A DNA stretch of 64,000 nucleotides from Owenia fusiformis (taxonomy: Eukaryota; Annelida; Polychaeta; Sabellida; Oweniidae), in the NCBI GenBank assembly GCA_903813345.2, contig CAIIXF020000006.1, forward strand, positions 21,397,936 through 21,461,935, in the 5' to 3' direction. The notes below the pieces were generated by a model. It saw only the letters and a program-made list of their open reading frames with translations. It searched no databases and was not told the DNA's origin. The position numbers and the translations under genes were made by a program. Position 1 is the first letter of the stretch, and each line of letters begins with the position of its first letter. Below, one piece after another: positions 4,916 to 59,284 of the stretch.

Positions 4916-5160
4916 AGTGCCAAAGCCAAAGGACCTAAAATTGTTAAACAGTAAGACAAAGAAAACATCTAAGAATACACCAGTAATGAGAAAAACAAAT
5001 CCCAACTATCTCAAACCATGATCTAAAGTGAAAAGGGTCTAATACCCCTCCTCCCACCATGTTTTATATGTCTCTGAGTGCATGTACCATTATCACAATC
5101 CAAGACTACTACACAAAGGGATATTTCATTGATACTGAAGTCATAACAACCCGGACGAGG
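4916..5160. repeat. Dispersed repeat, copy 1 of 2
   Basis: This stretch matches 59290-59500 in the same orientation: CCAAAGGACC / AAAGGACCAAA, then AAGACAAAGAAAACATC, ACACCA.TAATGAGAAAAACAAA and a C-rich TACCCCTCC.CCC segment, all in the same order. Reading frames in both copies are interrupted, so the similarity comes from an old interspersed repeat and not from a shared gene. Its boundaries and class are unknown. Confidence 0.55.
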
Positions 5161-7188
5161 AGAGTGGTTATAAGAAGTATGCATAAGCATGCTTTTGCCA
5201 ATTTTATACAAGTTACTGCATTTCTACCTAAGAAGATCAGACCGGAAGTAATATAATATCCCAAAATAATCGATCCCTCTAACCAGAGGAGATGGTAATT
5301 CTCAAGATGATTGTTAATCAATGGATGCTCTGGATCTGGATGTCCAACATTATATTATCAAATGATTGCTTATGATAATATAAGAATGGACGTATCATCG
5401 GTTATCATTTTATGCATATGATGGTGACCTTCCCAGGAAATAGCATTACAACATTATTTATTTGAGTATTTATCCTTCTCTTGTCTGTCAGGGGTATAAC
5501 AGTGCAGCTAAAATCTCGAGGAATATTTAACAACAAGTATAAGCTGTATAATATAGCTCGTTAAAAATGTCAATTGTTTCGTACAAATCAAGAGCTATCA
5601 GGAATAGCACAAGGTCACCTTTTCTGGTAGTTGTGAGATACTTGAGTCTAATCAACATTCTATATCATCTCTGTGATGCCACATTCCATTATCAATGACA
5701 TTTACAGTTGTTAGCATGTAATTTGGAAATGGTAATATCACACAATAAATATGTCAAATATGACAGAATCTATTCAGTTCTCAGAGAATTCTTTCTAGAA
5801 TAATGTTACTTCCAATATGGGTATAAATGCATTGAAAATAGCTTATTCAAGGCACATTGTGTCATCATTATTCACCACTGTATGTAGGTTCTGTTCCTAT
5901 CCCTTCCTTATATGAAGGCATATACGATATGTGACAATCATAGGCAAAGTGAAAAGTACTATTGAGGTCAATAAAGAAGATATTACTTCCCCTCGGCCTA
6001 TGGTGGCAATTTCGACATCTGTCAATTCTATCATTTTATTGACAAAGTACAAGATAGCCATATACTTGTGTTAGTATGAGAACGATAAATCGAATTTGGA
6101 TCCTTGAAGCACTTCAGTGATCATTGCCACCAGATGCACTATAACAATATCGATGTTTTCGGATAACTCAACTCTTGACAGTTTTTACAATTCTATATGC
6201 TGGTGTATGTCATACTTGTGGAGTGCCTCGTACAGCTAGTATATAAGCTGCATATACATAGCTGTTGTGAGATACTTGAGTATTTAGTATGCATATTTTT
6301 CCATCTTAAAATGTTCAATGCTTTTGAATTAATTAATTTATCGGAAATGGTACAAAAAATCCATACGGTATTTTTAATTGCCTTAAACATAAAAATGTCC
6401 TGGAACCATTTAACTGGATTTTATATTTAAAATAATCAAAACAAAACAAAATAGTCAAATTGGACAAACTTGTTGAAGTAAAAATTGTCTTTTACAATAT
6501 TGAAAATTATAAGAACAAGAAATTACTGATACTCCAAGATCTTCGACTTCCAATTAAGTTGAAGTTGGAGCAACTAAAACCTTGTGCATCAAGATGAAGA
6601 TAAAAAGATAAAGAAACCAATAAGCAACGCATCCACCATCCTAAGATGACGTGGGAAATACAAAATGCTTCCTTCAATCTATTAATCACGACATATCAAG
6701 AATAATGTTATGTAATAATTGAATGAATAAATCGAATTGTAAGATGAAAACTTTTCAGGGAACAGCATCTAACTGCATCCCATTTTATGAACCATGATTA
6801 TAGCATACTATATAGTATAAAACAAGTGTTTGGTGACATTGCGCACTAGTGAATCATTAATATTTTATTTCTAGGAAATCCAAAAGCTACAGGGACACAC
6901 TTTATGTGTAAGACTCATGGGGATAGGTACATTAGAAATATAGAACTTTCCTCAACATGTATTGTTCATCCTGGCGCCAGATAAATTAATTTTTTGTTTA
7001 GTAAAATAAAGAGTATTGGTTGTTAAGTCTTTACAGCTGCTTTATTCTCAAACCGGTAGCAGAATATGTTATTTCTATACAACAATACGAATTTATTTTT
7101 TCTTATACAATGCTTTTTTAAGAAGAACTTCATCAATGTTTTGCTGAAGATAATCGATTCAGCCACTATGAATGATGGCAGTCTTGTG
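5161..7188. other. Gene-free interval
   Basis: No supported gene. The 17-mer GTTGTGAGATACTTGAG occurs twice, near 5628 and 6263, which suggests fragments of a shared repeat. Otherwise nothing organised is seen before the tandem array. Confidence 0.55.
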
Positions 7189-8432
7189 AAGTACTGTATT
7201 CATTATTAAACACAGAGACGCTTAATGCACACTTTTTGTGTTCAACTTCACATCCACACACAACTTATAATGAATACCTGAAGTACTGTATCCATTAAGG
7301 AACATAGAGACGCTTAATGCACACTTTTTGTGTTCAACTTCACATCCACACACAACTTATAATGAATACCTGAAGTACTGTATCCATTAAGGAACATAGA
7401 GACGCTTAATGCACACTTTTTGTGTTCAACTTCACATCCACACACAACTTATAATGAATACCTGAAGTACTGTATCCATTAAGGAACATAGAGACGCTTA
7501 ATGCACACTTTTTGTGTTCAACTTCACATCCACACACAACTTATAATGAATACCTGAAGTACTGTATCCATTAAGGAACATAGAGACGCTTAATGCACAC
7601 TTTTTGTGTTCAACTTCACATCCACACACAACTTATAATGAATACCTGAAGTACTGTATCCATTAAGGAACATAGAGACGCTTAATGCACACTTTTTGTG
7701 TTCAACTTCACATCCACACACAACTTATAATGAATACCTGAAGTACTGTATCCATTAAGGAACATAGAGACCCCGGGATAGAGACGCTTAATACACACTT
7801 TTTGTGTTCACATTCACATCCACAACCAAGTTATAATGAGTACCTGAAGTACTGTATCCATTAAGGAACACAGAGACGCTTAATGCACACTTTTTGTGTT
7901 CAACTTCACATCCACAACCAAGTTATAATGAGTACCTGAAGTACTGTATCCATTAAGGAACATAGAGACCCCAGGATAGAGACGCTTAATGCACACTTTT
8001 TGTGTTCACATTCACATCCACAACCAAGTTATAATGAGTACCTGAAGTACTGTATCCATTAAGGAACATAGAGACCCCAGGATAGAGACGCTTAATGCAC
8101 ACTTTTTGTGTTCACATTCACATCCACAACCAAGTTATAATGAGTACCTGAAGAACTGTATCCATTAAAGAACATAGAGACCCCGGTAGAGACGTTTAAT
8201 GCACACGTTTTGTGAATGCGTTCACATTCACGCAAAACTTATAATGAGTACCTGAAGTCATCATGATATACCATGACATCTCATTTCTTCTCAGCCTGAA
8301 ACAGAAAGATGCTATGAGTATCAGAATGACCTGAAGTACTGCATCCATTATGAAACATAGAGACCCGGGATAAAGACGCTTAATGCACACGTTTTGTGAA
8401 TGCCTTCACATTCACAAAAAACTTGTAATGAG
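7189..8432. repeat. 92-bp tandem array (satellite-like)
   Basis: A unit beginning GAAGTACTGTATCCATTAAG and ending ATAATGAATACCT repeats with an exact 92-bp period from about 7189. The first six units are nearly identical. From about 7760 on, units carry a 15-16 bp insertion (GACCCC.GGATAGA), making them about 108 bp, with more point differences. A 73-bp foreign segment (8258-8330) interrupts the array before a last unit ending near 8432. Recent homogenisation on the left and decay on the right suggest unequal crossing-over active at the left end. Confidence 0.95.
8258..8330 (+). repeat. Dispersed repeat inserted in the tandem array
   Basis: TCATCATGATA.ACCATGACATCTCATTT.TTCTCAGCC, followed by AAACAGAAAGAT and GAGTATCAGAATG, recurs at 17202-17288 (with 16 extra bases in the middle) and partially at 19231-19270. 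Here it lies between two array units, so it either inserted into the array or was captured with it. Confidence 0.7.
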
Positions 8433-9204
8433 TAATCAAATCACTTTAAGGTAAGATTCCCATAACTGATACATGAATAATGTAAGTAACTTTTGCATCA
8501 AATAATTAATTCTTGCAGATTTAGGCGAATTATATGTTCCCAAAATGTGGACGGCTATTTGAAAATTCCCAATACGATGATAAAGAGTAAGACGTTGGGC
8601 AACACGGGAGCTCCAGAGGCAACATGTCATTCTAAATTCATATATTGATTCTATTTGTATGATTTTACAAAGACAACAAAATCAATTTCCTTCTGCGTTT
8701 ATCTGTTAACTTTACCAGACATGTTTTCATCAAAATTGAATCTCAACGGACACGATGTCATATGAATAGATCTATAACGTAAACCAATTACTTGCAATTA
8801 TACCCTATTTATATGGAACACAAATACATCTTGTTTCCGTGAATCTTCCGACTCCTGATGAGAATACGAGTATATTCACATTTCGGAACGCAGGCAGCAG
8901 TCTATTGCTAATACGATTATATAAATTACTAATATGAACGAACAAATGATAATCCAGAAAGAAAGGTTTGAACTTGAACAGATTGCTAATTTTGGTTGTG
9001 TTGAACAACACAACAAGTGACCATCCCATATACATGATATATCTCTACATCATACACCAATTACAATATCATATTGTGAAGGTGAACAGTGCAGGGAGTG
9101 ATTGATAAATGAGAGACTTATTGTGCAATTATAGCGCATCCCATTTTATGAATAATATACTTTGGGAATGAATGACATTGATTGATTATAGGGATCCTTT
9201 TCTG
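8433..9204. other. Gene-free interval
   Basis: AT-rich DNA without recognisable coding or repeat structure. The 76-codon minus-strand ORF at 8805-9035 has no familiar motif. Confidence 0.5.
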
Positions 9205-17558: not shown

Positions 17559-18000
17559 TGATTGTACAGTACGTCACATACAAAGGTGTATTAATGCAAC
17601 TGTAATGACCATACTGTCAGAGAGTGTATTCATGTATTGTTGTTATCGAGATCTTGGTGGTTTGTTGATTGTACAGTAGGTCACATACAAAAGTGTATTG
17701 ATGCAACTGTAATGAGCATACTGTCAGAGAGTGTATTCATTGTACTCTATTGTTGTTATCGAGATCTTGGTTGTTTGTTGATGTACAATAGGTCACATAC
17801 GAAAAAGAACTGATGAAACTGTGATGAGCATACTGTCAGAGAGTGTATTCATTGTACTCTATTGTTGTTATCGAGATCTTGGTGGTTTTTTGATTGTACA
17901 ATAGGTCACATACAAAAGTGAACTAATGAAACTGTAATGAGCATACTGTCAGAGAGTGTATTCACTGTATTGTTGTTATCGAGATCTTGGTGGTTTGTTG
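17559..18000. repeat. About 110-bp tandem array, four units
   Basis: Units start near 17559, 17667, 17780 and 17892 with GAT(T)GTACA(G/A)TA.GTCACATAC. Each contains CATACTGTCAGAGAGTGTATTCA and ends TTGTTGTTATCGAGATCTTGG. Spacing varies from 108 to 113 bp through a small TTGTACTCTA insertion present in the middle units only. Confidence 0.95.
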
Positions 18001-24368: not shown

Positions 24369-24719
24369 TAGTATAGTGTAATAAATGATGATAAATATAC
24401 GAGAGGTGATCAGGAATTTCTGGACCGTTGGCTCTATTTTTGCCATTTCTTATCCTTTCTTAGGGATTTTTCCACACAATATAACCCAAATATATAGGAT
24501 CACACCATGAAGATTTCATTGTTCTATGACATCATTATCCTTTTATTTTTGTTACCATGATAACCGGTGACTCTACAAGGTGGGGCTCAGAAAAATACCA
24601 AATTTGAAAAATCAACAATAATTTTCTATGATGTTTGGACACTGTATTCATTGCTGAATATGCGATATATAGGTTGTATTATTTCATTTATTGTGTTCAT
24701 TAATGTTCATAGTAACAGT

Positions 24720-24986
24720 TCTGTCATTATTCTTCCATCAATTCTAATCCTTCAAAGTAGTTACCAGCATTTTGTAAGCTATTTGTTGTGCATTTTACCC
24801 AGTCCTGAAAGACATGATACCGTCTTTGCCTACTTTGTAACATTGGTGTGTGAGATCCCAACTGTCCTTAAAGTGGATACCTCGTAATTTGTACTTCGCT
24901 GTGGGGAGGAGATAGAAATCACAGCCAGCTAAATCTGGGGAATATGGTGCGTGTGGTACACGGCTACAACCGATGGAATCGATCAC
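24720..24986 (-). pseudogene. Mariner transposase C-terminal fragment
   Basis: The minus-strand frame from 24986 contains PHAPYSPDLAGCDFYLLP followed by KYKLRGIHFKD. This is the mariner signature around the last catalytic Asp of the DD34D triad, and both Asp residues of the motif are kept. The frame breaks after FRTG (24795). In a shifted frame it continues as WVKCTTNSLQNAGNYFEG and a stop, matching the usual mariner C-terminus (W..C...GNYFE). The first two catalytic Asp residues and the DNA-binding region are absent. Confidence 0.9.
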
Positions 24987-24997
24987 ATTTTGTAGGC

Positions 24998-25105
24998 AAA
25001 GATGGTCTGTTTCATGTCTTTCAGGAGTGGGTGAAAAGCCACAACAAATGCTTACAAAATGCTGGTAACTACTTTTATTTGGAGGATTAGAATTGATGGA
25101 AGAAT
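24998..25105 (+). pseudogene. Second, inverted mariner transposase C-terminus
   Basis: The plus strand contains VGKDGLFHVFQEWVKSHNK, then CLQNAGNYF, the mirror copy of the C-terminal end in the left arm. Homology to the left copy starts abruptly near 24998, so the DLAGCD catalytic segment is not duplicated. A 3-bp insertion near the end and later stops show decay independent of the left arm. Confidence 0.8.
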
Positions 25106-25436
25106 ATTGACAGTTACAGTGAACATAAATGAATATACTTAATGAAATAATAGAACCTATTACAGTATGTCACATATTCAGCAATGAGTACAGTGTCCAA
25201 ACACCATAGAAAATTACTGTTCATTTATCAAATTCGGTATTTTTCTGAGCTCCACCTTGTTGCGTCACTGATTAGCATGGTAACTAAAATAAATGGATGA
25301 TGATGTCATAGAACAATGAAATCTTCATGGTGTGATTATATATATTTGGGTTATAATGTGTGAAAAATCACTAAGATAGGATAAAAAATGGCAAAAATAG
25401 AGCCAACGGTCCAAAAATTCCTGATCACCCCTCGTA

Positions 25437-26922
25437 TCGCACATTAACTAGAGATATGATTTCCGATATTAACTTCGTATTATATATATTAAAGTCGAGG
25501 AATTATGTGGGATAATTTGTATTGTTGCAGCAGAGTGAATATTAAGTTCAATTTACATTCAATATGAAGTTGTTTGCCATGTATAAAAAAGGCATTCAAT
25601 GTTCACGAGTCAAATTGATAGACTTCCATATTGTCTTGTAACATAAAAACGCATGTTCAAAATAATTATAATTAACTGAATGATTACATCATTGTATCTC
25701 TATTATTAATATCAATTAAACATTTGCATGTTATGATATGATCACGTGAAATACCGATGATGTAAAATTCGCGAACAATATGAATCAATTATAAATGAAA
25801 CGTTAAGAAGATATCAAACAACACTCGCGTCACTCATTCGCTGTTTAAATAATATTTGGAAATTCATTTTTCACACATATCCTTAGAATTAATTTATCCA
25901 TGATAACAATTAAATGGGTTGTTTCGTCATGACGTGGGAGGGGGAGGGTCACAAGGGATTGATGGGATGTCAATGCAAGTCAGGTCTAAGACACTAAAAA
26001 CAAATCCTCGAGAATGAGATGCAATACTAGTTGATATACAACTTATGAAACTTCTTGTTGTTTTCAAATGCCGACCATCTATGCGTTCGGTTTTATAATA
26101 CGAAAACGGAACATGACAAAAAGCTTACATATGCAGTATAATCATACAAACCATATGGAATATGCATAGGAATAAATTATTAAGTTACCAGCATAATAAT
26201 GAAATTATTAAAGCAAACAGCAGTCCGTGCTTATTCAACCATGCTTTCTCATATCGTAATGAAAGGCTTATAGAAAATATGATATCAAGAAATGGAATTA
26301 ATTATAATGAAGTGAACTCACTCCCCTAAAATTCAATCGATAGAATAATATTTTGTCAGTTTAATTGTTATGTCAAATATCAAGTTTCTAAGTTGTGAGA
26401 ATATCATCATTTTCAAGCAGACATTGCAAATGTAACGCAATACCACATCCTCTTACACGTTCATTAACTTTCTCACATATGCCCAACAAGTCATTTGCTC
26501 GCTCACTCACGGTACGTCTGTCTATGTCTGTGTAAGTGTCTGTGTTAGTGTCAGTGTTTGTGTCTGTGTCTGTCACTGCTTCTGTTTATGCTACACTCAC
26601 TCTACAATCACTATCTTCTTCACTATATCTCCACTCATCCGTACATCAATTCATTTTCTCACTCATTCAAAATCGCACTCACTCAATACCTCACCAAGTC
26701 AATGGACTCATTTATTTATTTATTTTATCACTCAACCATAAAAAAATATTTGAAACACATCGACTTTAATAACAAGTACCTATTTACAAATTTTAAATCT
26801 AGATATATACACGACTCTAAGTGCTATTTTTTCCCTTGTATTTTGAGTTACCTGGTAATATATTAACTAAGAGATACATCAGCCTCGCATATATCATACT
26901 TTAAGGATCAAACATAATACAA
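25437..26922. other. Gene-free interval with a TGTCTG-type microsatellite
   Basis: No gene supported. At about 26515-26580 a degenerate hexanucleotide run (TGTCTG/TGTCAG/TGTTAG) produces a spurious Thr-Asp/Asn repeat ORF on the minus strand. A CACTCA-rich segment follows to about 26700. Confidence 0.6.
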
Positions 26923-27859
26923 TAGCGGAATCAATTGGTGAATGATCTTGCGTTTTCATACTAAAGTTTGTTTTTGAGTTTTTTCTTGAAGTTTTATGTA
27001 TTTAAAGTTATTTAAGAGACAGGGCCCTTTTTCTAAAGCCCTTTTTAGAGAAATAATTGAGATTCCAGAGGATACCTGTTATTTCTGCTTTTTAACACAA
27101 TTTTAATAGAAAATTCAAATTCCAAACTCCTTATCTCACTTTAATTCACCAATGGAGAATGGGAATTGAGCAACGAAACTTGGCACAATGTTAGATCCTA
27201 GGATAAACTCTTATCTCAGGGCTTGGATTTTTTGTGATATCTTATATTTGTCTAGCAACCACATAGCAACCGCCTAAAATAACATATTTTACAATATAAA
27301 TCCACTATTTGCTAGGATGCTATGAGACCATTACAAAAAAGTATTCTTATCCTAGAATACAACAATTTTAACATATTTACTGAAGTGACATCATCATGTT
27401 GCATAGCAACAACATGGCAACAGGTTACAATGCCCATTTTGACATTGGCAGACCATATATCTATTATATGTTCACTGCCTTTGGATCTCTTCCACATTAT
27501 TTCTTAACATATAGCAAATGTATTGATCCAGTTATATCTGACCATTTTCCCTAGCAACGGCTTGAAATAAAGGTTAAATTTGCTTAGCAACGACCCAGCA
27601 ACATCTTAAAATAACAATGTTTCTCATAAGAATTTCACTATATATCCACTATATGACTTGAAGAAAATCAATATACATGTATATGTCTTTTGTAATTTAT
27701 AAAGCTTTACAGTTGCTCACTTAAAAATCTTTAGTCTCTTGTGTAAAGCATGATGGGACATTTCTTGTCTTACATATATCAAATTGCAATTCATGTTTCA
27801 GTTATAATTCATCACATTGATACTTGATACATTTTCAGCATTGATACCCCTAAAATAAT

Positions 27860-28790
27860 ACTTTACTTTGGTAAATTGCTTCAATTTCCTTTACAGGTGC
27901 ATAGTTCGATGCAGTAGAATGCACCATGGCATTAGCAGTTCACTTTGCAGTCACATTTGGTGCATCCACATTTAATTATGACGTTACATGCTATGGATGC
28001 TTGGGCAATATTGTCAATCTGGGCACCCACAATCCTGATGGGCTCCTAAACCATCCCCATAGGCTTGGTGAAGGAAAAACTGGATCCTCTATATACCACT
28101 GCCCCCATACATGTGCTTCTTGTCAAAGGGGCACCTGTAAGATCATTACATAAGTCCCATTGCTTGAAAACTGTCACCTTGCTATGATGGTAAAATCCAG
28201 ATGTGGTATCAGTTCCAGTAAGGATGTGGAACATTGGCAGCGCACACGATCTTTGTGGTCCTAGTGCTCAAGCAAATTCATAAATTGGAATGTAGTGTTA
28301 GTTTAGTAGTATTGAGATTTGTCTCTCTGTTTGTAGGCTGGTAAACCAGGATAATAAACCTCTCAATTGTGCCCATAACTTCTGTTGTTGTTACGGTTGA
28401 TGGGCGATCTACTAGAGTCAAAAGGACAAGCAAATTTATAAATTGGAATGTAGTGGTAGTTTTGAAAATGCTACATAGATCTGTAGCTCAGAGGCACAGG
28501 CTATTAGGCTATCACAACATTACTGTCCACTGATCTTATCATAAATGTCCTGCAACCTTTTCCGACACCATGAGACACATCCAAAAACATATGTGTATCT
28601 GCCTCTTCCTTGGAGCAGGGACTATTTATGGCATAATTAACAGGATTACTGATGCACTCTCCTTCAATTGTTGAGACTAAGACTCTGTCGTCTGCCATAA
28701 TATGTCTTGTAACAGTTGCTAGTAGTGCAAAGAACTCTATCTTGTTGTCATTGTTTCTTAGAAATCCTATCCTAACACCAAACTACCAAG
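27860..28790 (-). pseudogene. Transposon-linked PIN/XPG-like, Cys-rich protein remnant (left arm)
   Basis: Minus-strand segments in order: GFLRNNDNKIEFFALLA (about 28765-28710), VLVSTIEGE, EEADTHMFLDVSHGVG and MIRSVDSNVVIA (28504-28698), then a rearranged stretch, then ALPMFHILTGTDTTSG (about 28234-28190), and finally a Cys-rich tail IIKCGCTKCDC...CTCKGN. These match a protein family common in transposable elements of marine invertebrates, with conserved EADT, DTD and TGCDT acidic motifs resembling PIN/XPG-type nuclease sites (functional assignment inferred). Stops, frameshifts and D-to-N in the DTD motif make it inactive. Confidence 0.75.
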
Positions 28791-28983
28791 CAATTGGCAC
28801 AATTCCTACATTCTTCAGCATCTCAAGTGGTAGAGCTTGAAACTTTAATCAGTAAAATATCGTGTCTTGATTTAAATTCTATATACTAGACGTATTTTGA
28901 ACACACCCTGCTGGGATACATAAACCCCATATGCTGGGTTCAGTGGAATATTACTATCCAAATGTGAAAAGTTAACAATGTCA

Positions 28984-29760
28984 TGAGGCAGATACATATA
29001 TAATTTTGTCGGAAAAGGTTGCAGGACATTTATGATAAGATCATTGGACAGAAATATTATTGCAATAGCCTTAGCCTGTGCCTCTGAGCTACAGATTGAG
29101 GTCTATGTAGCATTTTCAAAATGCAAAATGTATCGCTTCATTCCAGTTCATGAGATTGCTAGAGCACTAGGACTACAAAGATCATGTGCGCTGCCAATGT
29201 TCCACATCCTTACTGGAACTGACACCACATCTGGACTTTACCATCACAGCAAGGTGACAGTTTTCAAGCAATGTAACTTATGTAACAGGTGTCCTTTTGA
29301 CTCTAGTAGATCGCCCATCAACCGTAACAACAACAGAAGTTATGGGCGCAATTGAGAGGTTCATTATCCTGGTTTACCAGCCTACAAACAGCGAGACAAA
29401 TCTCAATACCATGCACAGGGACATGTTCCCTCATGACAGATGGATCCTGGTAGTTTACCTCCAATATGTGATGCAGCACTCTGTAATAATGTCATGCTCC
29501 AAGGAGCACATGTATGGGGGCAATGGCATATAGTGGATCCAGTTCTTCCTTCAGCAAACCTATTGGGATGGTTTGGGAGAGCATCAGGATTGTGCATACC
29601 CAGATGGACAATACTGTCGCAAGCATTCGAGGCATGTAAAGTCGTAATTAAATGTGGATGCACCAAATGTGACTGCAAAGGGAACTGCAAATGCCATGAC
29701 GCATTCTACTGCACCGAAACTATGCAATTGCAAAGGAAATTGTAGCAATTAACCCAAATA
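28984..29760 (+). pseudogene. Same protein remnant, inverted second copy (right arm)
   Basis: The plus strand encodes MIRSLDRNIIAIALACASEL, then YVAFSKCKMYRFIPVHEIAR, ALPMFHILTGTDTTSGLYHH (29032-29280), a frameshift, and then from 29440 DPGSLPPICDAALCNN, HVWGQWHIVDPVLPSA and the tail KCGCTKCDCKGNCKCHDAFY. This order is that of the intact family: acidic core, then a PP.SDAL-type segment, HVWGQ, then a Cys-rich zinc-binding-like C-terminus. The second Asp of the DTD motif is Asn here too. The upstream EADT part is missing because homology stops near the loop. Confidence 0.75.
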
Positions 29761-30752
29761 GAGTATTATCTTAGGGGTACTAATGCTGAAAATGTAACAA
29801 GGATAAATACGATGAATATTTTGTGTTTACTTTATCTCAGAACTGAAACATGAATTGCATGACTTTTGCAGTTTGATAAACATAAGACAAGAAATGTCCC
29901 ATCATGCTTTACACAAGGGACTACAGATTTTTGAGTGTGCAGCAACAAAGCTTTATAAATGAAAAGACATACATATTGCATAATAGTGAATATATAGTGA
30001 GATTTTTATGAGAAACATTGCTATTTTAAGCTGTTGCTAGGTCATTGCTAGGCAAATTTAAGCATTATTTTAAGCCGTTGCTCGGAAGTTGCTAGGGAAA
30101 ATGGTCAGGCATAACTGCATCATTTATGCTTAAATACAATTTCTGTATGTTAAGAAATAATGTGGAAGGGATCAAAAAGCATACAAGTGAGCATATAATA
30201 GGAATATGGTGTGTAAATGTCAAAATGGGCATTGTAACCTGTTGCCATGTTGTTGCTATGCAACATGGTGATGTCACTTCTGTAAATATGTTTGAATTGT
30301 TGTATTAGGATAAGAAGACTTTTTGTAATGGTCTTATAGCATCCTAGCATATATTAAGTGGATTTATATTGTAAAATGTGTTATTTTAGATGGTCGCTAT
30401 GTGGTTGCTAGGCAAATGTATGATTTCACAAAAGATCAAACCCTTCAGATTATAGCTTATCTTAGGGTCCAACTTTGTGCCAAGTTTGGTTGCTCAACTT
30501 CCATTCTCCATTTGTGAATTATAGTGAGATAGGGAGTTTGAAATTTGAATTTTCTGTTCACATTGTGTTAAAAAGCAGTAATAATGGGTATCCTCTGTAA
30601 TCTCAATTATTTTTCTAAAAAGGGTTTTATAAAAAGGGCCCTGTCTCTAAAATGTCTTGAAATACATAGAACAATAGGAAAAAATTCCAAAACAAACTTT
30701 AGTATGAAAACGCAAGGTCCCTATGGGGGCCTTGCACCAATTGATTCCACTA

Positions 30753-33222
30753 CAAGGTGATTTAGCACAATACACCAAGTAAAGATAACATTAATATTAG
30801 TCTACGTTATATATTTTAGTTTATCCCACGGCCAACACCATTGCTAAATCAACAATAATAAGCCGATTACTCTTCTTTTTTATTACAATGTGAACTTTTT
30901 TTTAATGTGGGAGTCAGGATCTGACAGCGAGGGTATAAAGTAAATTTTGAAAATCTATTTGAGCTCATTTTTAAAAGTGAGACCGATCTGCTGGTGAATC
31001 GATTGTGTAAATTACGGATTCGAACTCACAATGGTATTTTGCCTAAACGCTGAGCAAGTTGTTATGATAATCTAGTTAGATCTATGGAAAACACGTCAAT
31101 CACAAAAGCACAAAGCACAAGGCATTTTATAAGGGACAATGTCCTATTGCTATTGTAATCAAATCTTCTAAGGTTGATCACTTATAACCATAAATTAGGT
31201 TTGATTATGTTCGTACATTGTACTATGTTCCATGGAAAATATTATTTGTCTAAAACTGTTCAATGCTTTGTGTTGGCATCTGACCCTGGCAGTGTCATCA
31301 CAAGCCTAAGATAATTATACATACATATTTTTATCTTTCACATTTTCACTCAGTCACCCCGTTTATTATTTGAGACGATTTAAACATCTTTTTCCATTTT
31401 CCCCATGATGTCACCTAGATGGTCAGGAATACATTGATAGGTCAATTATTCATGTTGCTGCAATCTTATCACCCCCATAGATCTGATTCTACCTTTAATT
31501 CATGTATATTATATATCTGATACATCAATGCTGGTACATCGTATTCATGTGATGCCTTAATTCTAGTATAGTATATATTTGATGCATTATTGGATTGTGT
31601 TGTTCTCGACCCTCATCAATAAAATATGAGGCTTAAAAATAAGCAGCAGTATTCTAGAACAGGGATGCTATATGGCTGTAAGTATTAGCGATCAATATTG
31701 CATCTGAACCACGACTGGCTATCCCGTTTATTAAGTTTCCTAGTTGCTTTGTTTTAACATATGAAATAGAAAAATGTAGGGGTTCAAAGCAAGTTGAGAA
31801 ATTGGACATGATGCCAACAATACGAATTGTAAAGACCCCTATTAATAAACTTTAGCAGATCATTAATTGAAATATCAAAGAATATCTATCTATATTTGCT
31901 TTACCAACGGACATAGAACCATAGGCATATATACATGTAGAATACATATATGTACATTGATAAATGATAGATAGATATATCTGTTGATCGAACAGTCAGC
32001 TGTACTTCACATACTGTCATTTTTGTGAATGTGAAGAAAATCAGTAGACTGGTATTTTTCATGGTATTATCTAGGTTGGAACATACGTTTGAGGTCGCAA
32101 TGTGTCTTTAATCTAAGTTTAGATAGGAATATGGCACTCATGGCACTAGGTGAGTATGTTAGCCATACAAATATGAGAGACATAATCCTTTATTATCAAA
32201 ACTGAGTGTAAAAAGGGTACATTTTGAAGGGTGATTTAATATTCAGGCGCAGTGATATTTGATGAAGGGGGGTATTGTAACATCACATCACGTGACCTAG
32301 ACTAACATCAACCAATCAAGAGTGTAGGTCATCTATAAACACTGTCTTATCTAAGAACTAAGATGTTGAACATTCCTTTACATTGTTAGCTTAGGTAATG
32401 GGTTCTTTATAGGGCTAGGCAACATGGCGATGTTGTATAAATAAAAATGTTGCCGTTTATAATAATGCTGAAGTAAAGTCGAATACAATTACACGATGCA
32501 TAGCATGCGTTACATGAATACGATCAGAATAGTAATTTTCAATTGCCAAGGAATCATACTCAAAATATACCATTAGTAGTTGATGCAACAGACAAACCGC
32601 TTCGAGAATTCAAATAAAGAGTGAAAACTATCCAGACCCGAATTAGGATGCACGTGTATTCATGTTTATAGATTAGCAAAAAGCAAACTTCAATGATATG
32701 TAAATTACTGCACAAACGGCATGGATCACTATGATGATTTATTTTTTACATTGAAGTAAATCCTTATTGCAATTGCATAGCACATAAATTGTTGACATAT
32801 CATAATTATTAGCTCTTGCCATTTGTAAGTTTGTAACACTAGTATTACTAACTGAACATGAAGTATTTATAAAATTCCTAACATTCTGAACATTAATCAA
32901 AAACTATCGTGTCCTTATTCATCAATGTCATCAAAGAAATCTAGGGTTTATTTCACCAATTGTTCACGATCCAGCTTTCAGACTGTATGGCAATTTATCA
33001 GATCTTTACTTTCTTCGGACAGTAGGGTCTTATAAGTATGCCTTCAGGCTAGGTGGTGAGATTAACTCAGCCATTATGTGATTAATATGAAGAAAAATTA
33101 GCATGCCCTTGTTCTAATCCTCAACGTTGCCATCACACAGTGGATGATAAACTACTGTCGTCTTTTGTGCAGGTTCAGACGACCGAAACTGAATACGTTA
33201 AAGAAATAGAGGTTCTTATATG
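30753..33222. other. Gene-free interval
   Basis: No supported gene. It holds one copy of the 46-bp conserved motif (31454-31499). It also has a cluster of promoter-like words at 32288-32443: TCACGTGA at 32288, CCAAT at 32312 and TATAAATA at 32436. No exon can be attached to these. Confidence 0.45.
31454..31499 (+). repeat. Conserved about 46-bp motif, copy 2 of 3
   Basis: GTTGCTGCAATCTTATCACC, CCCATAGATCTGATTCTACC, then TTTAATT: the same block as at 41934-41980, with one missing C and a few substitutions. No other part of the surroundings matches the other copies. Confidence 0.65.
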
Positions 33223-33223
33223 A

Positions 33224-33302
33224 GTACCTGTGCAAGATCGTTTCGACTCGATAAAGAAGAATTATCAAAGCTCATCAAGAATGGACGATATTGCACAGGT
33301 AC
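33224..33302. repeat. Hairpin with perfect 12-bp arms
   Basis: GTACCTGTGCAA (33224-33235) and TTGCACAGGTAC (33291-33302) are exact inverted copies. Imperfect complementarity extends outward (ATGAGTACC/GGTACGAGTA) and inward (GATCGT/ACGAT). It may be a small MITE or an RNA hairpin. Confidence 0.55.
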
Positions 33303-33418
33303 GAGTACAAGAAAGTTGTTCTCATATGACTCTGTATTCTGCCATATTTTCACCATTTTATCATAAAACTGAGTGAAAAATAGTTTCAAATTAATTGATC
33401 TTCATCTTTCAATTGTAA

Positions 33419-33488
33419 TGACGTCATAACAATATTGAAGAAAATACATAGATACACGTGGCAACAAAGCTACATTGTTATGACGTCA
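33419..33488. repeat. Inverted repeat containing two TGACGTCA (CRE) sites
   Basis: TGACGTCATAACAAT (33419-33433) and ATTGTTATGACGTCA (33474-33488) are perfect 15-bp inverted repeats, and each begins with a full CRE palindrome. A CACGTGGC word lies between them, and GTTGCCATG/CATAGCAAC words lie just downstream. It could be a composite regulatory site or the end of a MITE. Confidence 0.6.
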
Positions 33489-35468
33489 CAACTTTGTTTT
33501 GTAGAATTAGCATGGATACTCATAGCAACGGTGTGTCCGTTGCCATGTTGTTAATGTTTATAGACCAGTGATGTCACAAGTAAATCTCATCTTGCACGTG
33601 TGACTTTTTAGGATGAAAGATGGCAATATCTTGCATGGGGTAAAGATGGCTGTATCTTTGTTAGTCATATGAGAAATCAATATATGGCGCGGAATTTAAT
33701 GTATACAAATAGCCGGATGAGGATACATTGATATATAAAAGTTTCAAAAATAAAGAACCATACCATACCATACACAAACGAATGAAATAGGTTTGGTGAA
33801 CCACCCACGGGCGCAAATTAAAGAAATATCGAGACGAGTAATACTATGGTCTGGATAACCCTTATTGCATTCAGTTATATTATAACGAGGTATCTGTCAT
33901 TTGGGATATCCTTAAAATGTACATGAATGGATAACAGTTGCTCATTTAAGATGAATCCATTGATAGTTACACCCCCATCCATACAGCTGGAAGATATCAT
34001 TGGATACCATATCAGAGCCTGTCAATATGTGAATCTTTTTTATTACAATTATTCGCAGATTTTTTAAATCGCCAAACATAAATAGGCGTTGATAGTAATT
34101 CAAAAGGGCGTGTATGTCAGGCAGTTGTAAAAGAAGGCAAAATGTAACAATTGTCAGACTCCTGATACTGTACCCTCATCAAAATTCGGAATTTCCCCTC
34201 ACAACATGATCGGGTTCTCATGGGACCCTATGTTTTCCTTAGAGGTGCTAGTAAATATCAACAATAACATGTGTAATTTGGGAATAATCAAAATGAGGTA
34301 TTGACGATTATTCTGTTTTTTTTTTAGAAGAGACGAGGTTGAATTCAAATGTGTTGAATCTCAGAATTCAAGGGTTTGGAAAGTTCAGATAGGATATCCA
34401 GATTTGCCTCCATCACAAATTGAGAATGTTGCAAAGTTATCCCATGCCAAAGTAATGTAAAACAAGGGATACAATAATTATACCCTCAATAACTGATATA
34501 ACTTCATCAAAATTATTTAGCAAAAGCAATCGGTGGAGAATTTAATATTGTTCCTGGAGGTACGGGTTCTGGCGATAACATTAATTTTCTATATTGGAGA
34601 TAAATATATTAATAAGTGGAAGAAAGGGGTCCAATATTATCTTTTTTCCTATTCTTATTGAAATCCTCATTCGATATTCGGTTTAAAATGTTAATATTTG
34701 TACTTCTAGTTGTTTTGAAATATTATTGTTTGACATTCAAATGAAATAAAAAACTTACTTTTCCTGCAATCCAGCACTATCAGAATTAATCCAGTTTCTT
34801 GATTATAAATAATCCATCCCAACTCAGATAAAAAATGGTGGTTCTCTACGACATGCCGTGCAAGAATTGTATAGCAATGTTGTCTTTTCTAGGCTTAAGA
34901 ACAGTGGTGTCGAAATTATATTTCACCAAATTCCCAAAGTCCTTTATTATTTAGCAGCTTACATCTTTCCTTGATTAGATTTCTGACTATTAGCGACCGA
35001 GAATGAGGCTAAATTAGATAAACCCCAATATAATTCTATAATTTAAGCTGGATGCTGGTATAATACAAGGGCAAGTATCAAAATTCCTATTGTTTATATA
35101 TAACGATTAATATATGTCAATACTAGAGTTCAAAAGATCCTGGTTGTGTAGAGTTGAAAGAACTCGATAAAGCAAGGAAGTAATCATTTCTAGGTGTATG
35201 TTGAATTATGATGCCATATACTATAGTCATAGGTACTACTGTACATATATATGTTGTACAATCCCTCTCCTATATCTTCCCTCATTGGACCGATTGAGTA
35301 TAAATTATTGGAAAAATGATTGTATTTTGTGCCACGGAATAAACTTTTGAAGGGAAAAATATTGTCAATGGAAATCTATTATTTCTTCACAGGTGTAACG
35401 TTGTAGGAACACCATATTAGCAATATTTTATCGATACTCATCAATATGTCAATAAATATTCTAACACA
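33489..35468. other. Gene-free interval
   Basis: AT-rich sequence with no supported gene or repeat. A TTTTTTTTTAG splice-acceptor-like tract at about 34316-34326 is followed by an open but unremarkable frame, and no matching donor gives a convincing exon. Confidence 0.45.
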
Positions 35469-36110
35469 CAGGGTGTCCCGAAAGTTTGCCCCCCCCCCTA
35501 GGCAGACATATTCCAGTGTCCTCATAGTATATGTCATATATCATTATAAAGCTTATCCAAAGTTACATTGATTTGCCAAGTATCATGGTTTAACTCCCAA
35601 ATGGGAAAAAGTTACAGTCATTTTAAAAGTTAGTGTTTTGTCAAAATAAAGTTCAATTTTACACCACATTACTAGTCAATGTGTCCCCCCTTGACCATGT
35701 TAACAGCAGCAATTATTTTCAGATATGACCTTAAAAGCCCTTCAAATAGGAGTGTGGGATTTTATAGCCCTCTTAAAACCTGTTAAGGGACTTAAGAAGA
35801 GTTTCCTTAGAGTTTCTACCCTCACCATTCTCTTTTTCCAACTCAATATCCCTCCGACCCGAAAAGAATTGCTGTTGTTAAGATGGCCCAGGAGGACACA
35901 TTGACTAGTGATTTGATGTAAAATTGAATTAATTTTGACCAAACACTAAATTTTGAAATGCTTGTAATTTTTTCACATTTGAGAGTTGAACCATGATACT
36001 TGGCGAATCAATGTAACTTTGGATATGCTTTCAAATGATATATAACACATACTATGACGACACTGGTATATGTCTGCCTAGGGGGGGGGGCATACTTTCG
36101 GGACACCCTG
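35469..36110. mobile_element. Fold-back element made of two Tc1/IS630-like 3' ends
   Basis: The left terminus CAGGGTGTCCCGAAAGT and right terminus ACTTTCGGGACACCCTG are inverted copies with a C- or G-run just inside each. TA follows the right end (36111-36112), while the left flank is CA, probably a mutated TA. The arms pair over about 245 bp (35469-35716 with 35864-36110) around a loop of about 147 bp. Coding remnants of a transposase C-terminus point outward in the arms. Confidence 0.85.
35672..35840 (-). pseudogene. Tc1/IS630-like transposase C-terminal remnant
   Basis: Minus-strand reading gives LTGFKRAIKSHTPI (35784-35742) and, after a frame change, KIIAAVNMVKGGHID and a stop at 35674. 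This ending resembles the usual C-terminus of this superfamily, where a helix is followed by (N)GGHIE and a stop. The right arm carries a matching IAVVKMAQ...GHID remnant on the plus strand. No catalytic region remains. Confidence 0.65.
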
Positions 36111-36303
36111 TACATAATTCTTAATCAAATTGTAGAATAAGGGTAGATTGTCGATTATCCTTAAATAACATAATATCTATAATGGACATTGTGTTAGTCA
36201 TGAAGATGTAAAAACCACAATGATTATGGATAATGTTTTGTATACATCTTTAGTCAACAAACTTTTCAGTGTAAAGTCATACACATTCAAATACGTATTT
36301 ACA

Positions 36304-36995: not shown

Positions 36996-37500
36996 AATAT
37001 TGGCAACATTTGACGCAATTTCGTTTTTTCATTCCACTACTACACCGCCTCAATAAGTTTGGCAACATTTGACTATTGCGCAATTCCGTTCTTTCATTCC
37101 AGTTTGGCAATTTCGTTTCACTGCTACACCGCCTCAATAAGTTTGGCAACATTTGACTATTACGCAATTTCGTTCTTTCATTCCACTACTACACACCCTC
37201 AATAGGTTTGGCAATTGCGTTCTTTCATTCCAGTTTGGCTATTTCGTTCCACTACTACACCGCCTCAATAAGTTTGGCAACATTTGACTATTACGCAATT
37301 TCGTTCTTTCATTCCACTACTACACCCCCTCAATAAGTTTGACAATTTCGTTCCACTACTACACCGCCTCAATAAGTTTGGCAACATTTGACTATTACGC
37401 AATTTCGTTCTTTCATTACACTACTACACCAACTCAATAGGTTTGGTAATTGCGTTCTTTCATACCAATACTACACCAACTTTTTAATAAGTTTTGCAAC
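36996..37500. repeat. Irregular tandem array, about 66-bp unit
   Basis: CCACTACTACACCGCCTCAA followed by TAAGTTTGGCAACATTTGAC, then TATTACGCAATTTCG and TTCTTTCATT repeats about eight times. Several shorter units lack the middle section, giving a mixed 30/66-bp pattern. The short ORFs here (minus 36943-37167, plus 37388-37630) are products of the repeat. Confidence 0.9.
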
Positions 37501-37822: not shown

Positions 37823-38420
37823 CAGGGTGGGTCAAAAAACCAATAACCGAGTTTAAAGATGAATGATTCATATGATATGTGTTAAACCATGCCATGTATT
37901 ATATATCATTTTAAAGATAAATCATTTCCTAACCAAATAACACCATCCAATTGAAAAAACTTGGAGTTTGAGACAAAAATTGATACCAGGGGTGCAGTGA
38001 GCGACCAAAAATCAAAATTCCCAAATTTCCCTCCATATTGCAGTCACTCAATATGCTTGACTGAATCATCATACATTTATTTAAGAATAATACACAATTT
38101 ATAATTTATTAAAAATAGTTCAGTATTATTGCTAAATTTTGCCCTATACTTGTATAAATGTACCTCTTTTGTAGGTACCAAGGTTCAAATTTCCCTCCAT
38201 TTTCCACAATTTGGAAATCCGCAGTAAATAATTTCTTGGTCGCTCATGACACCCCTGGTGTCAATTTTAGCCACACATGAAAACAAGGGTTTTTCAATCA
38301 GATGGTGTCATATTTTAGGAAATGATTTATCTTTAAAATGATATGCAAAACATGGCATGGTTTAACATTATATCATATGATATTCATCCTAAACTTGTGT
38401 ATTGTTTTTTGACGCGGTTT
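37823..38420. mobile_element. Fold-back element with CAGGGTGGGTC terminus
   Basis: The left end CAGGGTGGGTCAAAAAACCA is preceded by TA (37821-37822). The right end GTTTTTTGACGCGGTTT is its decayed inverted counterpart and is followed by TA. The arms of about 210-220 bp pair through AAACCATGCCATG/CATGGCATGGTTT, AAATCATTTCCTA and AGGGGTG..GAGCGACCAA. The loop of about 150-180 bp is AT-rich and non-coding. The terminal words resemble the other CAGGGTG elements here. Confidence 0.8.
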
Positions 38421-41540: not shown

Positions 41541-42450
41541 ATGAAGTCTTTTGAAGAAGGATTGGGTGTTTCACTTTTTGATTTTATTTTGGATCAAGAT
41601 GGAGTTTTGCCCAGTTGGTCTCCTGGTAGAGGAAAGCAAGCACAAACAATTTCAGTCAAATCCGTTGATGTTTAGACCTCCCCTTCCACATTTTCTGACA
41701 CCCATTCACTACCATGTTAATAATTGTTTGAATATTGCAGAAAGTATCAATTTCATCATGTTTGAGACCCATGTTCTACCAAAGGCATTACAGTGATTTG
41801 CATCAAATTCATTTGAAATGTTGTTCAGTATGCTTTTGATCCATGCACTTCACCAATTTATAACATATTGTGAATCTTTTTGGAGATATTGTATTTCATA
41901 TTGTAAGGAATAGATTGGTTAAAAGTTAAAAGTTGCTTGTAATTTTGTCACCCCCTATAGATCTGATTCTTCCTTTAAGCATTGATTTATAAGAATGTGC
42001 TATATCATTAACGTTAACCTGCATCAGTTTTTAGCAAGAATCAGGTATTGATATCATGAATTCGAGAGTACCTATGATCCCCAAAATTAAAGATGCATCA
42101 GCTTAGGCTATCAGATTCCACCTTTTAAAAGTTCAGGACCCTACATTTTCTAATTGTGTAGTTATGGCACCCTCAAAATGGCAAAACTCCATTGTGCATG
42201 AAGCAATTTGAAGTTTGGTAGAACATAGGTCTCAAATATGATGAAAATGACAGATTATTAAGTTATTAATATGGTAGTGAATAGACGTCAGAAAGTGTGG
42301 TAGGGGGAGGTCTAAACATCAACAGATTTGACTGAAATCTTTGTGTTTACTGTCCTCTTTCAGGAGGTCAACTGGGCTATACTCCATCCATTGATCTTGA
42401 AAAAAAGTCAAAAAATGAAATAACCTAATCCTCAAGCTCCTCAAATTCAT
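41541..42450. mobile_element. 0.9-kb fold-back element within an intron
   Basis: The left arm (about 41541-41805) and right arm (about 42193-42450) are inverted copies. Among many shared blocks are GGATTGGGTGTTTCA with its complement GAAATAACCTAATCC, AGATGGAGTTTTGCC, GATGTTTAGACCTCCCC and GAGACC.ATGTTCTACCAAA. The loop of about 390 bp contains the conserved 46-bp motif. The terminal inverted repeats are imperfect and no target duplication was found. The apparent 81-codon ORF in the left arm has no known motif. Confidence 0.8.
41934..41980 (+). repeat. Conserved about 46-bp motif, copy 3 of 3
   Basis: GCTTGTAATTTTGTCACCCC, CTATAGATCTGATTCTTCC, TTTAAGC. It lies in the loop of the fold-back element and matches 22728-22773 (inverted) and 31454-31499. 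Confidence 0.7.
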
Positions 42451-45700: not shown

Positions 45701-47835
45701 TGTCACCACCAAAAGTGGTGACATATTGTTATGGTCTCCGTTTTTTTGCGACGGCGGTTGGTGGTTGGCGTCCGGCGGTTGGTGGTTGGCGTCCGGCGGT
45801 TGGCGTCTGTAACAATTTCTTACAACTTCCTATAACTTAACAAATACTGTTTAGACTGACTTCAATTTTTTTCTAAATCATCTACATGTTCTCAGAAGTT
45901 CAAATCTGACTTTAGATTTGACATTTGACCTTCAATGACCTTCTCAAGGTCAAAAAGGTCTTTTTTCAACTTGCTTCACATTGAATAAATTTTTTTTCAA
46001 AATCATCTACATGTTCTCAGAAATTCAAATCTGACTTTAGATTTGACATTTGACCTTCAAATCTGACTTTAGATTTGACATTTGACCTTCAATGACCTTC
46101 TCAAGGTCAAAAAAGGTCAAAAAGGTCTGTTTTCAACTTGCTTCAAATTGACTAAATTTTTCTTTCAAAATCATCTACGTGTTCTCAGAAATTCAAATCT
46201 GACTTAAGATTTGACATTTGACCTTCAATGACCTTCTCAAGGTCAAAAAAGGTCAAAAAGGTCTGTTTTCAACTTGCTTCAAATTGACTAAACAATTTTT
46301 TCAAAATCATCTATGTGTTCTCAGAAATTCAAATCTGACTTTAGATTTGACTTAAGATTTGACATTTGACCTTCAATGACCTTCTCAAAGTCAAAAAAGG
46401 TCAAAAAGGTCTTTTTTCAAATTGCTTCAAATTGACTAAATTCTTTTTTCAAAATCATCTACATGTTCTCAGAAATTCAAATCTGACTTTAGATTTGACA
46501 ATTGACCTTCAATGACCTTCTCAAGGTCAAAAAAGGTCAAAATGGTCTGTTTTCAACTTGCTTCAAATTGACTAAATTTTTTTTTCAAAATCATCTACGT
46601 GTTCTCAGAAATTCAAATCTGACTTAAGATTTGACTTAAGATTTGACATTTGACCTTCAATGACCTTCTCAAGGTCAAAAAAGGTCTGTTTTCAACTTGC
46701 TTCAAATTGACTAAAAAAAATTTTCAAAATCATCTACGTGTTCTCAGAAATTCAAATCTGACTTTAGATTTGACTTAAGATTTGACATTTGACCTTCAAT
46801 GACCTTCTCAAAGTCAAAAAAGGTCAAAAAGGTCTTTTTTCAACTTGCTTCAAATTGACTAAATTTTTTTTTCAAAATCATCTACGTGTTCTCAGAAATT
46901 CAAATCTGACTTAAGATTTGACATTTGACCTTCAATGACCTTTTCAAGGTCAAAAAAGGTCAAAAAGGTCTGTTTTCAACTTGCTTCAAATTGACTAAAA
47001 AAAATTTTCAAAATCATCTACGTGTTCTCAGAAATTCAAATCTGACTTTAGATTTGATTTAAGATTTGACATTTGACCTTCAATGACCTTCTCAAAGTCA
47101 AAAAAGGTCAAAAAGGTCTTTTTTCAACTTGCTTCAAATTGACTAAATTTTTTTTTCAAAATCATCTACATGTTCTCAGAAATTCAAATATGACTTTAGA
47201 TTTGACATTTGACCTTCAATGACCTTCTCAAGGTAAAAAAAGGTCAAAAAGGTCTTTTTTCAACTTGCTTCAAATTGACTAATTTTTTTTTTCAAAATCA
47301 TCTACATGTTCTCAGAAATTCAAATCTGACTTAAGATTTGACATTTGACCTTAAATGACCTTCTCAAGGTCAAAAAGGTCAAAAAGGTCTGTTTTCAACT
47401 TGCTTCAAATTGACTAAAAAAAATTTTCAAAATCATCTACGTGTTCTCAGAAATTCAAATCTGACTTTAGATTTGACTTAAGATTTGACATTTGACCTTC
47501 AATGACCTTCTCAAAGTAAAAAAAGGACAAAAAGGTAATTTTTCATCTTGCTTCAAATTGACTAATTTTTTTTTCAAAATCATCTACATGTTCTCAGAAA
47601 TTCAAATCTGACTTTAGATTTGACATTTGACCTTTAATGACCTTCTCAAGGTCAAAAAAGGTCAAAAAGGTCTGTTTTCAACTTGCTTCAAATTGACCAA
47701 ATTTTTTTTTTCAAAATTATCTACATCTTTTCAGAAGTTCAAATTTGACTTTACAAGTTCTCAGAAATTCAAATCTGACTTAAGTTTGAACTCATAATAT
47801 TGTGAGCAACTAGGTGGTGACATTTTGTCATGTTA
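45701..47835. mobile_element. Large pearl/HINE-like element with about 14-unit core array
   Basis: TGTCACCACC.AAA.GTGGTGACA forms a 5' hairpin (45701-45723). Its terminal word returns inverted as GGTGGTGACA at 47813-47822. A GGCGGTTGGTGGTTGGCGTC repeat follows the hairpin, then about 14 direct units of about 137-150 bp (45880-47770). Each has AAATCATCTAC.TGTTCTCAG, an AAATCTGACTTTAGATTT mini-palindrome, TGACCTTCAATGACCTTCTC and AAGGTCAAAAA runs. Extra TTTGACTTAAGA insertions distinguish alternating units, so the array may have expanded as dimers. Confidence 0.9.
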
Positions 47836-50726: not shown

Positions 50727-51013
50727 GTGAAATAAAACATCTTTCCGAACCTTCCGAACATGTTTAGGTCTCTCAATATTGTAATTGTACAAAGGAAATT
50801 TTGGTTGATTTTAAAAAAGTATCTTGTTAATGAAATAAAAGATTTTCTTGATTTTTATCTATTTTGGGGGGATTTTGTTTTAATTTTTTGAATACTTTTT
50901 TAAAATCAACCCAAAATTCCATTGTATAACTTTAATATTGAGAGGTCTAAAAACATGTTGTATATTCTATTTTGTTCCAACAAGGTTCGGAAAGACATTT
51001 TATTTCATTTTCA
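50727..51013. mobile_element. Small fold-back element
   Basis: GAAATAAAACATCTTTCCGA (left) and its inverted partner ending TCGGAAAGACATTTTATTTC (right) bound the element. The arms continue with AACATGTTTAGGTCTCTCAA/TTGAGAGGTCTAAAAACATG and AATTTTGGTTGATTTTAAAA/TTTTAAAATCAACCCAAAAT. The loop is about 70 bp. Non-coding, and no target duplication was identified. Confidence 0.8.
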
Positions 51014-53178: not shown

Positions 53179-54013
53179 GTTTTATGAAAAATATCACGGA
53201 AGATGTATTCTAGATATCAGTAGTATTCTCAGAAATTTATTATCCGAAACGGATAACATCTGGCCACTCAGACAAACAATCGCAGACATAGGCTAAGCTT
53301 GTTTATTTAACAGTTAGATTTGTTGACTTACCGATCCGTATTTCAATCTCCGGGAAGACGTTCTTTTCACTTTGTATTTGCGTGCAGTGTAATATGAGTT
53401 GATACTTTTGTTCAAAAATGTACTTTTAATGGCCATTTTATGCCTTTTATTTTCAAATTATGTTTTGTTTTGATGTCAATGTGAAAAGTCAAGAAACGTC
53501 AACCCCGACTTTTAATAAAAAAATGTTGGTTAATCACTTATGGCAAATCACAAGGTTGATCGTTGATCGTGGAAGGCTATCAATATCAGGTGTATATCGC
53601 ATAGAAAATAAATATAGCTAATTTTTCGCACTGATGTGATGATGACTATTCTGTCGAATCGGGTAGATATTTCTCAGTTTTATTCCGATAATAAAACTAT
53701 TCATTTCTATCAATTTTACAAACGGGGTCCTTTGAATGCACATTAAAACTATGAAAGTATTTATTGGGCGTACATACTCGTTCTGTCATGTTACTTACAT
53801 TTCATTTGCAAGTTGTCCACATATTAATCCGGCGTTTTGTTTAATCAAATTTCCCGCCCCTTGAGGTTTCCGACTGTAAAATTTAATATTTAATACTAAC
53901 CAATGCATCAGTTAATATTTTCAGAATACAAATTTTCCATTTTTATTTCTCTGATAGATAAAGTCTCATTTTGAATCTGTTCGTGTATTAAAGAGTATGC
54001 TTTTATAATGCCG
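53179..54013. other. Gene-free interval
   Basis: AT-rich DNA with no supported exon or repeat. Confidence 0.45.
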
Positions 54014-54143
54014 TGGTCACATTTGCTCAGATTTTCAGCACCGGCGCCCGGCCGATGAGTATTTTGTTCAAAATTGTATTCAATTCTGAACAAAATACTC
54101 AATCGGCCGGGCGCCGTAATGAAAATCGGAGCAAATGTTACCA
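54014..54143. mobile_element. 130-bp near-perfect palindromic MITE
   Basis: TGGTCACATTTGCTC and GAGCAAATGTTACCA are the outer ends. Inside, GGCGCCCGGCCGAT.GAGTAT and ATACTC.ATCGGCCGGGCGCC pair, then TTTTGTTCA/TGAACAAAA around a tiny loop. The GC-rich SfiI-like CGGCC block stands out in AT-rich DNA. The overlapping ORFs on the two strands are mirror images of this palindrome and are not genes. Confidence 0.85.
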
Positions 54144-54200
54144 AGTCATAACTGATGAAAAATCGAATGAGAACATGAACATGGATAATAGGGGCACTAT

Positions 54201-59058: not shown

Positions 59059-59284
59059 CCACCAAAATTCAGATAATGGTAAAATGATTATTAGTGAAAA
59101 TGTTGAAGATAAATATACAGATCATGACCATGAAATAATCATACATTCATACTTTTATCTTAAGCATTTTCACAAATAATCATTTTACCATTATCTGAAT
59201 ATTTGTGGACTGAACTGTAATAATAAAGAAAATTGAATAAATATTCCAATTTCAAAATGTTCCAATTTTTATTGGCCCACCCTG
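59059..59284. mobile_element. Partial CAGGGTG-family element with internal hairpin
   Basis: The right terminus ATTGGCCCACCCTG is followed by TA (59285-59286). Inside, ATTCAGATAATGGTAAAATG (about 59069) and CATTTTACCATTATCTGAAT (about 59181) are exact inverted copies whose pairing extends through GATTATT.GTGAAAATG. The left terminus is absent, so the element is truncated. Confidence 0.65.

Follow-up and report, generated by a model that had tools for sequence, protein, structure and literature searches.

Palindromic transposons built from two 3′ ends occur as dispersed families in the genome of the annelid Owenia fusiformis

How did three palindromes, each apparently built from two outward-facing copies of a transposon's 3′ end, come to lie in one stretch of an annelid genome, and why should the 3′ end be the one that is doubled? 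The stretch analysed here – hereafter the window – comprises 64,000 nucleotides of the Owenia fusiformis assembly GCA_903813345.2 (contig CAIIXF020000006.1, positions 21,397,936 to 21,461,935). The palindromes are related to a mariner element (M1), a PIN-like/Cys-rich element (PIN) and an IS630/Tc1-like element, and could be accidents of this locus or inserted copies of elements that were already palindromic.

BLAST self-comparison of the window recovers all three as inverted pairs (E 1e-148 to 0, far beyond chance), at the positions where a preliminary description had placed them. The arms of M1 lie at 24397-24833 and 24992-25437 (86% identity) and those of PIN, with additional inner pieces, at 26944-28122 and 29500-30719 (82%); the IS630-like segment 35468-36111 aligns inverted on itself at 80%. 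That description had called the three unrelated; PIN is indeed separate, but mariner and IS630-like elements belong to one superfamily, so two superfamilies are represented. Its observation that the loop carries coding sequence from one copy only holds for both M1 (24834-24991) and PIN. The features of the region are:

24398..24399, no strand: left TA target-site duplication of M1 (TA on both sides in 16 of 17 copies)
24400..25434, no strand: M1 mariner 3′-end inverted dimer, flanked TA/TA (self-comparison and family copies)
24400..24833, minus strand: M1 long copy, with terminal inverted repeat (TIR), 3′ UTR and C-terminal coding (self-comparison; tblastn on the M1 consensus)
24834..24991, minus strand: M1 loop, upstream coding of the long copy only (PYSPDLA region)
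24992..25434, plus strand: M1 short arm, the second 3′ end, inverted (self-comparison; amino acids 330-352 matched on the consensus)
26923..30752, no strand: PIN-like/Cys-rich 3′-end inverted dimer, with CAA target-site duplication at 26920-26922 and 30753-30755
28305..28426, no strand: insert in the PIN dimer, an inverted copy of 29290-29409 (97.5%), private to the window copy
28568..29006, no strand: PIN dimer loop, with upstream coding of the minus-strand copy
35469..36110, no strand: IS630/Tc1-like dimer with ends CAGGGTGTCCCGAAAG, flanked CA/TA, one base mutated
37831..38413, no strand: additional palindrome, one end of the TACAGGG type; by eye, probably a Tc1-like dimer as well

Five more palindromes are present in the window, at 37831-38413, 41558-42432, 50757-50959, 54008-54149 and 59028-59241, the first of which resembles by eye, in end and arm sequence, a palindrome at 4071-5196 of locus L080. 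Self-comparison also shows tandem arrays at 7187-8434, 17559-18000, 37000-37500 and 45857-47789.

The identity of the arms was examined by protein comparison. For the mariners, the query was a 355-residue protein assembled by joining both exon frames of a full-length element, L072 (C9:300200-302700), in which HTH_48 and Transposase_1 both exceed the Pfam cut-off. It matches by tblastn the consensus of M1 (E 6e-19) and that of M2 (E 9e-37), a family elsewhere in the genome (L065, L066, L067 and L069) that was reached by protein search from M1. The M1 long copy with its loop corresponds to residues 279-352 and the short arm to residues 330-352; the two sides of the M2 dimer correspond to residues 176-354 and 282-354. 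The 5′ and 3′ ends of L072 itself share 53 bp, followed by a further 83 bp (86%) at an offset of about 107 bp. For PIN, the two copies match residues 598-850 and 593-863 of an 870-residue frame of L096. This related protein has EEAD, TVDSD and TGSDT motifs by eye, which may point to an XPG/PIN nuclease domain, and two CXC matches below the Pfam cut-off; the PIN element has no Pfam domain over the cut-off. From these predicted proteins, the arms of M1 and PIN are firmly assigned as C-terminal transposase coding, 3′ UTR and TIR. The arms of the IS630-like dimer share only a short frame ending GGHID-stop, with no Pfam transposase match; a similar ending, GGHLE or GGHVE, terminates three DUF4817 elements of this genome (L083, L091 and L092), which hints that these arms too may be transposase 3′ ends. 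The earlier assignment of all arms as 3′ ends is thus firm for M1 and PIN and weak for the IS630-like dimer.

All three palindromes have numerous counterparts elsewhere. M1 matches end to end at 27 other places, and nearly so at one more, among the best 40 of 475 candidates; the IS630-like dimer does so at 39 others, at 94-96% identity, among the best 40 of 1354; and for PIN the best 40 of 293 were scored, these three candidate totals being rough first-look counts. Other copies were aligned with the window copy for M1 (16), the IS630-like dimer (20) and PIN (11). TA flanks both sides of M1 in all but one copy, whose right side was missed by the search pattern, and both sides of the IS630-like dimer in 19 of 21, the window copy having CA/TA; the 3-bp flanks of PIN are equal in all 11 readable copies of 12 examined. 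The flanking sequences differ between the copies of each family, except that the IS630-like copies L028 and L029 have flanks in common and therefore count as one insertion.

The internal junctions are also shared. In the aligned M1 copies the right boundary is the same in 17 of 17 and the left in 14, the other three having local deletions. The IS630-like junction is identical in 21 of 21 copies, and the PIN junction in 10 of 10, a count that leaves aside L041, where the fetched piece ends early, and L046. The latter is a shorter PIN dimer of about 2.3 kb, palindromic over its whole length and without a loop. The ~120-bp PIN insert at 28305-28426 occurs in the window copy and in none of the 11 others compared, and is a later, private, template-switch-like event. 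Because junction and structure are shared while each copy has its own target-site duplication, the dimer itself has transposed, which is the outcome that the preliminary description had proposed reading from many copies with one junction, here accompanied by differing flanks. The palindromes are mobilisable, as it had held, on the evidence of both the duplications and the common junctions; they were not formed at this locus. The window palindromes are ordinary inserted copies rather than local accidents, and all three derive from dimers that predate the spread of their families.

Divergence between arms suggests how old each dimer was when it spread. Identity between the two arms of the M1 consensus is 97.5% over 441 bp, with individual copies 86-95% like the consensus. 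In M2 there is one fixed left/right difference in 476 bp (four copies), or two in 480-base stretches taken to 4 bases past the junction (five copies); counter to such near-identity, the left arms of a further M2 subgroup (five places, L103 among them) are only 86-88% like the right arm of the query. The IS630-like copies are 95-99% like their consensus, in which the arms differ at 20 of 249 positions (8%), and the PIN consensus arms have 94 differences in 1161 positions and 77 gap columns, corresponding to 6-8% plus gaps (86-90% identity). On these figures, the arms of M1 and M2 were nearly identical when the families spread; those of the IS630-like dimer had diverged already, as those of PIN probably had, and these two dimers either are older than their last spread or were built from different copies. 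The symmetry earlier ascribed to all of the palindromes was thus near-perfect at the time of spread for M1 and M2, but is not shown to have been so for the IS630-like and PIN dimers.

M2 is the family in which the rearrangement can be compared with the ends that preceded it. Among the best 40 of 179 candidates are eight dimers that match over their full length, a ninth that has an internal deletion and a tenth interrupted by about 24 kb of inserted sequence, together with four copies that have a different, natural 5′ end (L109-L112). L109, L110 and L111 retain N-terminal coding (amino acids 2-168, 2-161 and 3-200) and are missing the middle of the gene, and L112 has coding for amino acids 229-354 only; the 3′ end of L111 is missing its outermost 61 bases. 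M2-line elements with natural ends have TIRs about 190 bp long. Over this length, the left end of the M2 dimer is 84.2, 81.1, 83.1 and 79.4% identical to the 5′ ends of L109, L110, L111 and L112, respectively, and 92.7, 94.3, 94.7 and 93.7% identical to their 3′ ends. Because the left end of the dimer is closer to the parental 3′ than to the parental 5′ ends, the 5′ end of M2 has been replaced by an inverted 3′ end, and the replacement that had been proposed for all three window elements is here seen directly. L062, considered as a single-ended M2 parent, was dropped when it proved to be half of the dimer split by the 24-kb insertion.

In L065 and L067 the sequence at the M2 junction is CTTCTTAG-TG-TAGCCAG, from which L066 and L069 deviate slightly. 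In the parental-type copies the short side runs on as TTCTTAG-CTTCGGG (L110 and L112; TTCTTTG in L109), and the long side reads ACAGAG-TAGCCAG in L111. The junction therefore corresponds either to a 2-nt microhomology, AG, with one substitution, or to a 2-nt filler, and looks like end joining. In L072, an intact relative, the reading frame is interrupted at YYSKV|LRRNL in the manner of an intron; the M2 dimers have this interruption at the identical site, so what was copied was DNA.

The doubled-3′ form arose at least three times, since M1, M2 and PIN have different junctions and parents; formation was recurrent, as had been suggested earlier. The M2 dimers are about 93% like the 3′ ends of parental-type M2 copies and only about half identical in protein to M1, so the M2 dimer was formed after the M1 and M2 lines had split. 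Our searches for parents of the M1, IS630-like and PIN dimers yielded relatives only, with about 47-49% protein identity to M1 and about 45% to PIN. Twelve candidate M1 parents from a search with the C-terminal protein were M1 dimers or fragments, distant relatives (L058 and L061) or pieces of M2 (L062 and L065), and L072, found through HTH_48 matches, is an intact relative rather than a parent. The other half of L097 was sought and nothing useful was found there. The expected 3′ ends of 13 DUF4817 elements share no match longer than 23 bases with the IS630-like arms, although some of the stretches compared may miss the end; the first 13 bases of the IS630-like end, TACAGGGTGTCCC, also occur in L092.

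Two other groups of mariners were encountered. L070 is bounded by 192-bp TIRs (99%), and its near-identical copies, with frames of 243 and 137 amino acids, are numerous. L098-L102 and L105 are elements of about 1.05 kb, which we designate M3, with TIRs of 160-196 bp and C-terminal coding only; these could represent either a further 3′ dimer, joined within the UTR, or a product of deletion.

We consider it probable that the palindromes are non-autonomous transposons, each combining two 3′ ends of one parent family that face outward, and that they were born in gap repair and mobilised as MITE-like families. Before each family spread, an element would have lost its 5′ part, and an inverted second 3′ end would have become linked to internal sequence of its gene. 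This would most likely have happened during repair of an excision gap (or of a broken fork) in which the strand due to copy the 5′ end instead anneals to the similar 3′ TIR and copies from there, with closure by end joining; long, similar TIRs would provide the second annealing place. The dimer retains two valid TIRs and would thus be movable by the transposase of intact relatives, of which those with long open frames, such as L072, could be the suppliers. It could then spread as a MITE-like family, reaching ten copies for M2 and probably hundreds for M1, PIN and the IS630-like dimer.

Gap repair with template switching and a paired insertion and deletion both fit the observations, including the sequence of the M2 junction, which is compatible with either. 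The dimers could have a composite origin, in which two copies inserted close together in head-to-head orientation, or one within the other, and had their genes fused by a deletion, after which the whole transposed as a unit. The same structure and the same end-joining junction would be expected, near-identical arms would need merely two recent copies, and two different copies would account for the consensus arm differences of the IS630-like and PIN dimers, but two hits are needed for every family, and in M2 the two copies would have to be alike to one fixed difference in 476 bp; none of the observations contradicts this course directly, and we regard this course of events as possible but rather unlikely. 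It is improbable that we are dealing instead with ordinary elements that have naturally long TIRs and internal deletions: natural TIRs of about 190 bp do occur in the M2 line, and the M3 elements are short, have long TIRs and contain a single C-terminal part, but C-terminal coding is present in both arms of M1, M2 and PIN, and the M2 left end is of the 3′ type when set against the parental 5′ end; for the IS630-like and M3 elements such an origin may still apply. Palindromes are a known type of read chimera, to which these would belong, but an assembly artefact is scarcely credible for sequences found at many places with different flanks, matching target-site duplications and a common junction.

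It has to be asked why 3′ ends are doubled. The three firm families are all of the 3′ type, for which chance alone gives 1 in 8. Among 150 scored HTH_48 matches (the best 150 of 585), none lies within 5 kb of an opposite-strand match, as would 5′-5′ dimers, but this is a weak test, since the matches come mostly from one young family. The activity of engineered Mos1 elements exceeded that of the natural form 26-fold with two right ends and fell 50-fold below it with two left ends (PMC4505599), and the same source describes Mboumar-9 as preferring its left end. A stronger, Mos1-like 3′ repeat as a simple reason is nevertheless weakened: the outer 33 bp of both M2 ends are identical in L109, with one difference in L110 and two in L112, and since they are the same in L109, repeat strength alone is not a good reason in M2. 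As piggyBat is described as needing both of its ends, with symmetrised ends working with a changed transposase (PMC11707139), symmetric ends do not seem to be better in general. We offer only tentatively the suggestion that 3′-3′ dimers are a favoured, convergent outcome, either through better mobilisation or as 5′-5′ dimers would express an N-terminal DNA-binding fragment and so repress the transposase on which they depend; the question is now directly testable.

The abundance of the form was gauged in ten arbitrary 10-kb stretches, taken at the same coordinate on ten chromosomes. These contain five palindromes that extend over 500 bp or more and have arms of roughly 200 bp or longer, and the window has four such, by a size threshold that was set after the palindromes had been seen. 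One of the five has a transposase remnant, by eye. The L080 palindrome (4071-5196) looks like a Tc1-type 3′ dimer by eye only, with no Pfam match, and the blastx match in L081 was to a non-transposase frame and is apparently another palindrome.

These elements show a route from a transposon to a symmetric, mobile, hairpin-capable element, and in M2, where dimers and parental-type copies are found in one genome, the sequences reveal which end was lost, which was duplicated and what the junction looks like. Our literature search found no report of the same 3′-3′ form in several families of one genome, although absence is not thereby proved. M1, with its TA target duplication and relation to mariner transposase, and M2, related to mariner transposase by tblastn, are both like Tc1/mariner non-autonomous elements, and the long inverted arms with internal sequence seen by self-comparison and tblastn are like those of foldback or extended-TIR elements. 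The 3-bp duplication of the PIN element agrees with AcademX transposons, described as having a 3-4 bp target-site duplication and a nuclease (PMC10045372), which makes it a candidate member only.

Several known systems share parts of this organization. Aphid mariner MITEs attributed to abortive gap repair, mostly with microhomology at the breakpoints and possibly moved by relatives (PMC5490172), are likewise non-autonomous derivatives, but as described there they are internal deletions that keep both natural ends. A Bari1 variant of D. rhopaloa, a Tc1-like element with two identical long TIRs (PMC4877112), resembles the dimers in having such ends within a Tc1-mariner element, but is described as putatively autonomous, its gene not replaced. 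The engineered Mos1 transposons also have two right ends, but were made in the laboratory (PMC4505599). In Galileo, a Drosophila element of the P superfamily, internal sequence has been copied inverted beside the other TIR, giving TIR1-F1-F1-TIR2, and the longest TIRs are reported in copies without a transposase ORF (PMC3573991); some D. willistoni copies have even incorporated the last part of the transposase ORF into their TIRs (PMC4168063). TIRs are thus known to be extended by internal sequence, and these D. willistoni copies have the kind of structure found here. However, according to these accounts, Galileo in D. mojavensis mostly recruits the 5′-side F1 region and is one family of varied copies, whereas in O. 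fusiformis several families each have one fixed 3′-3′ form in many copies.
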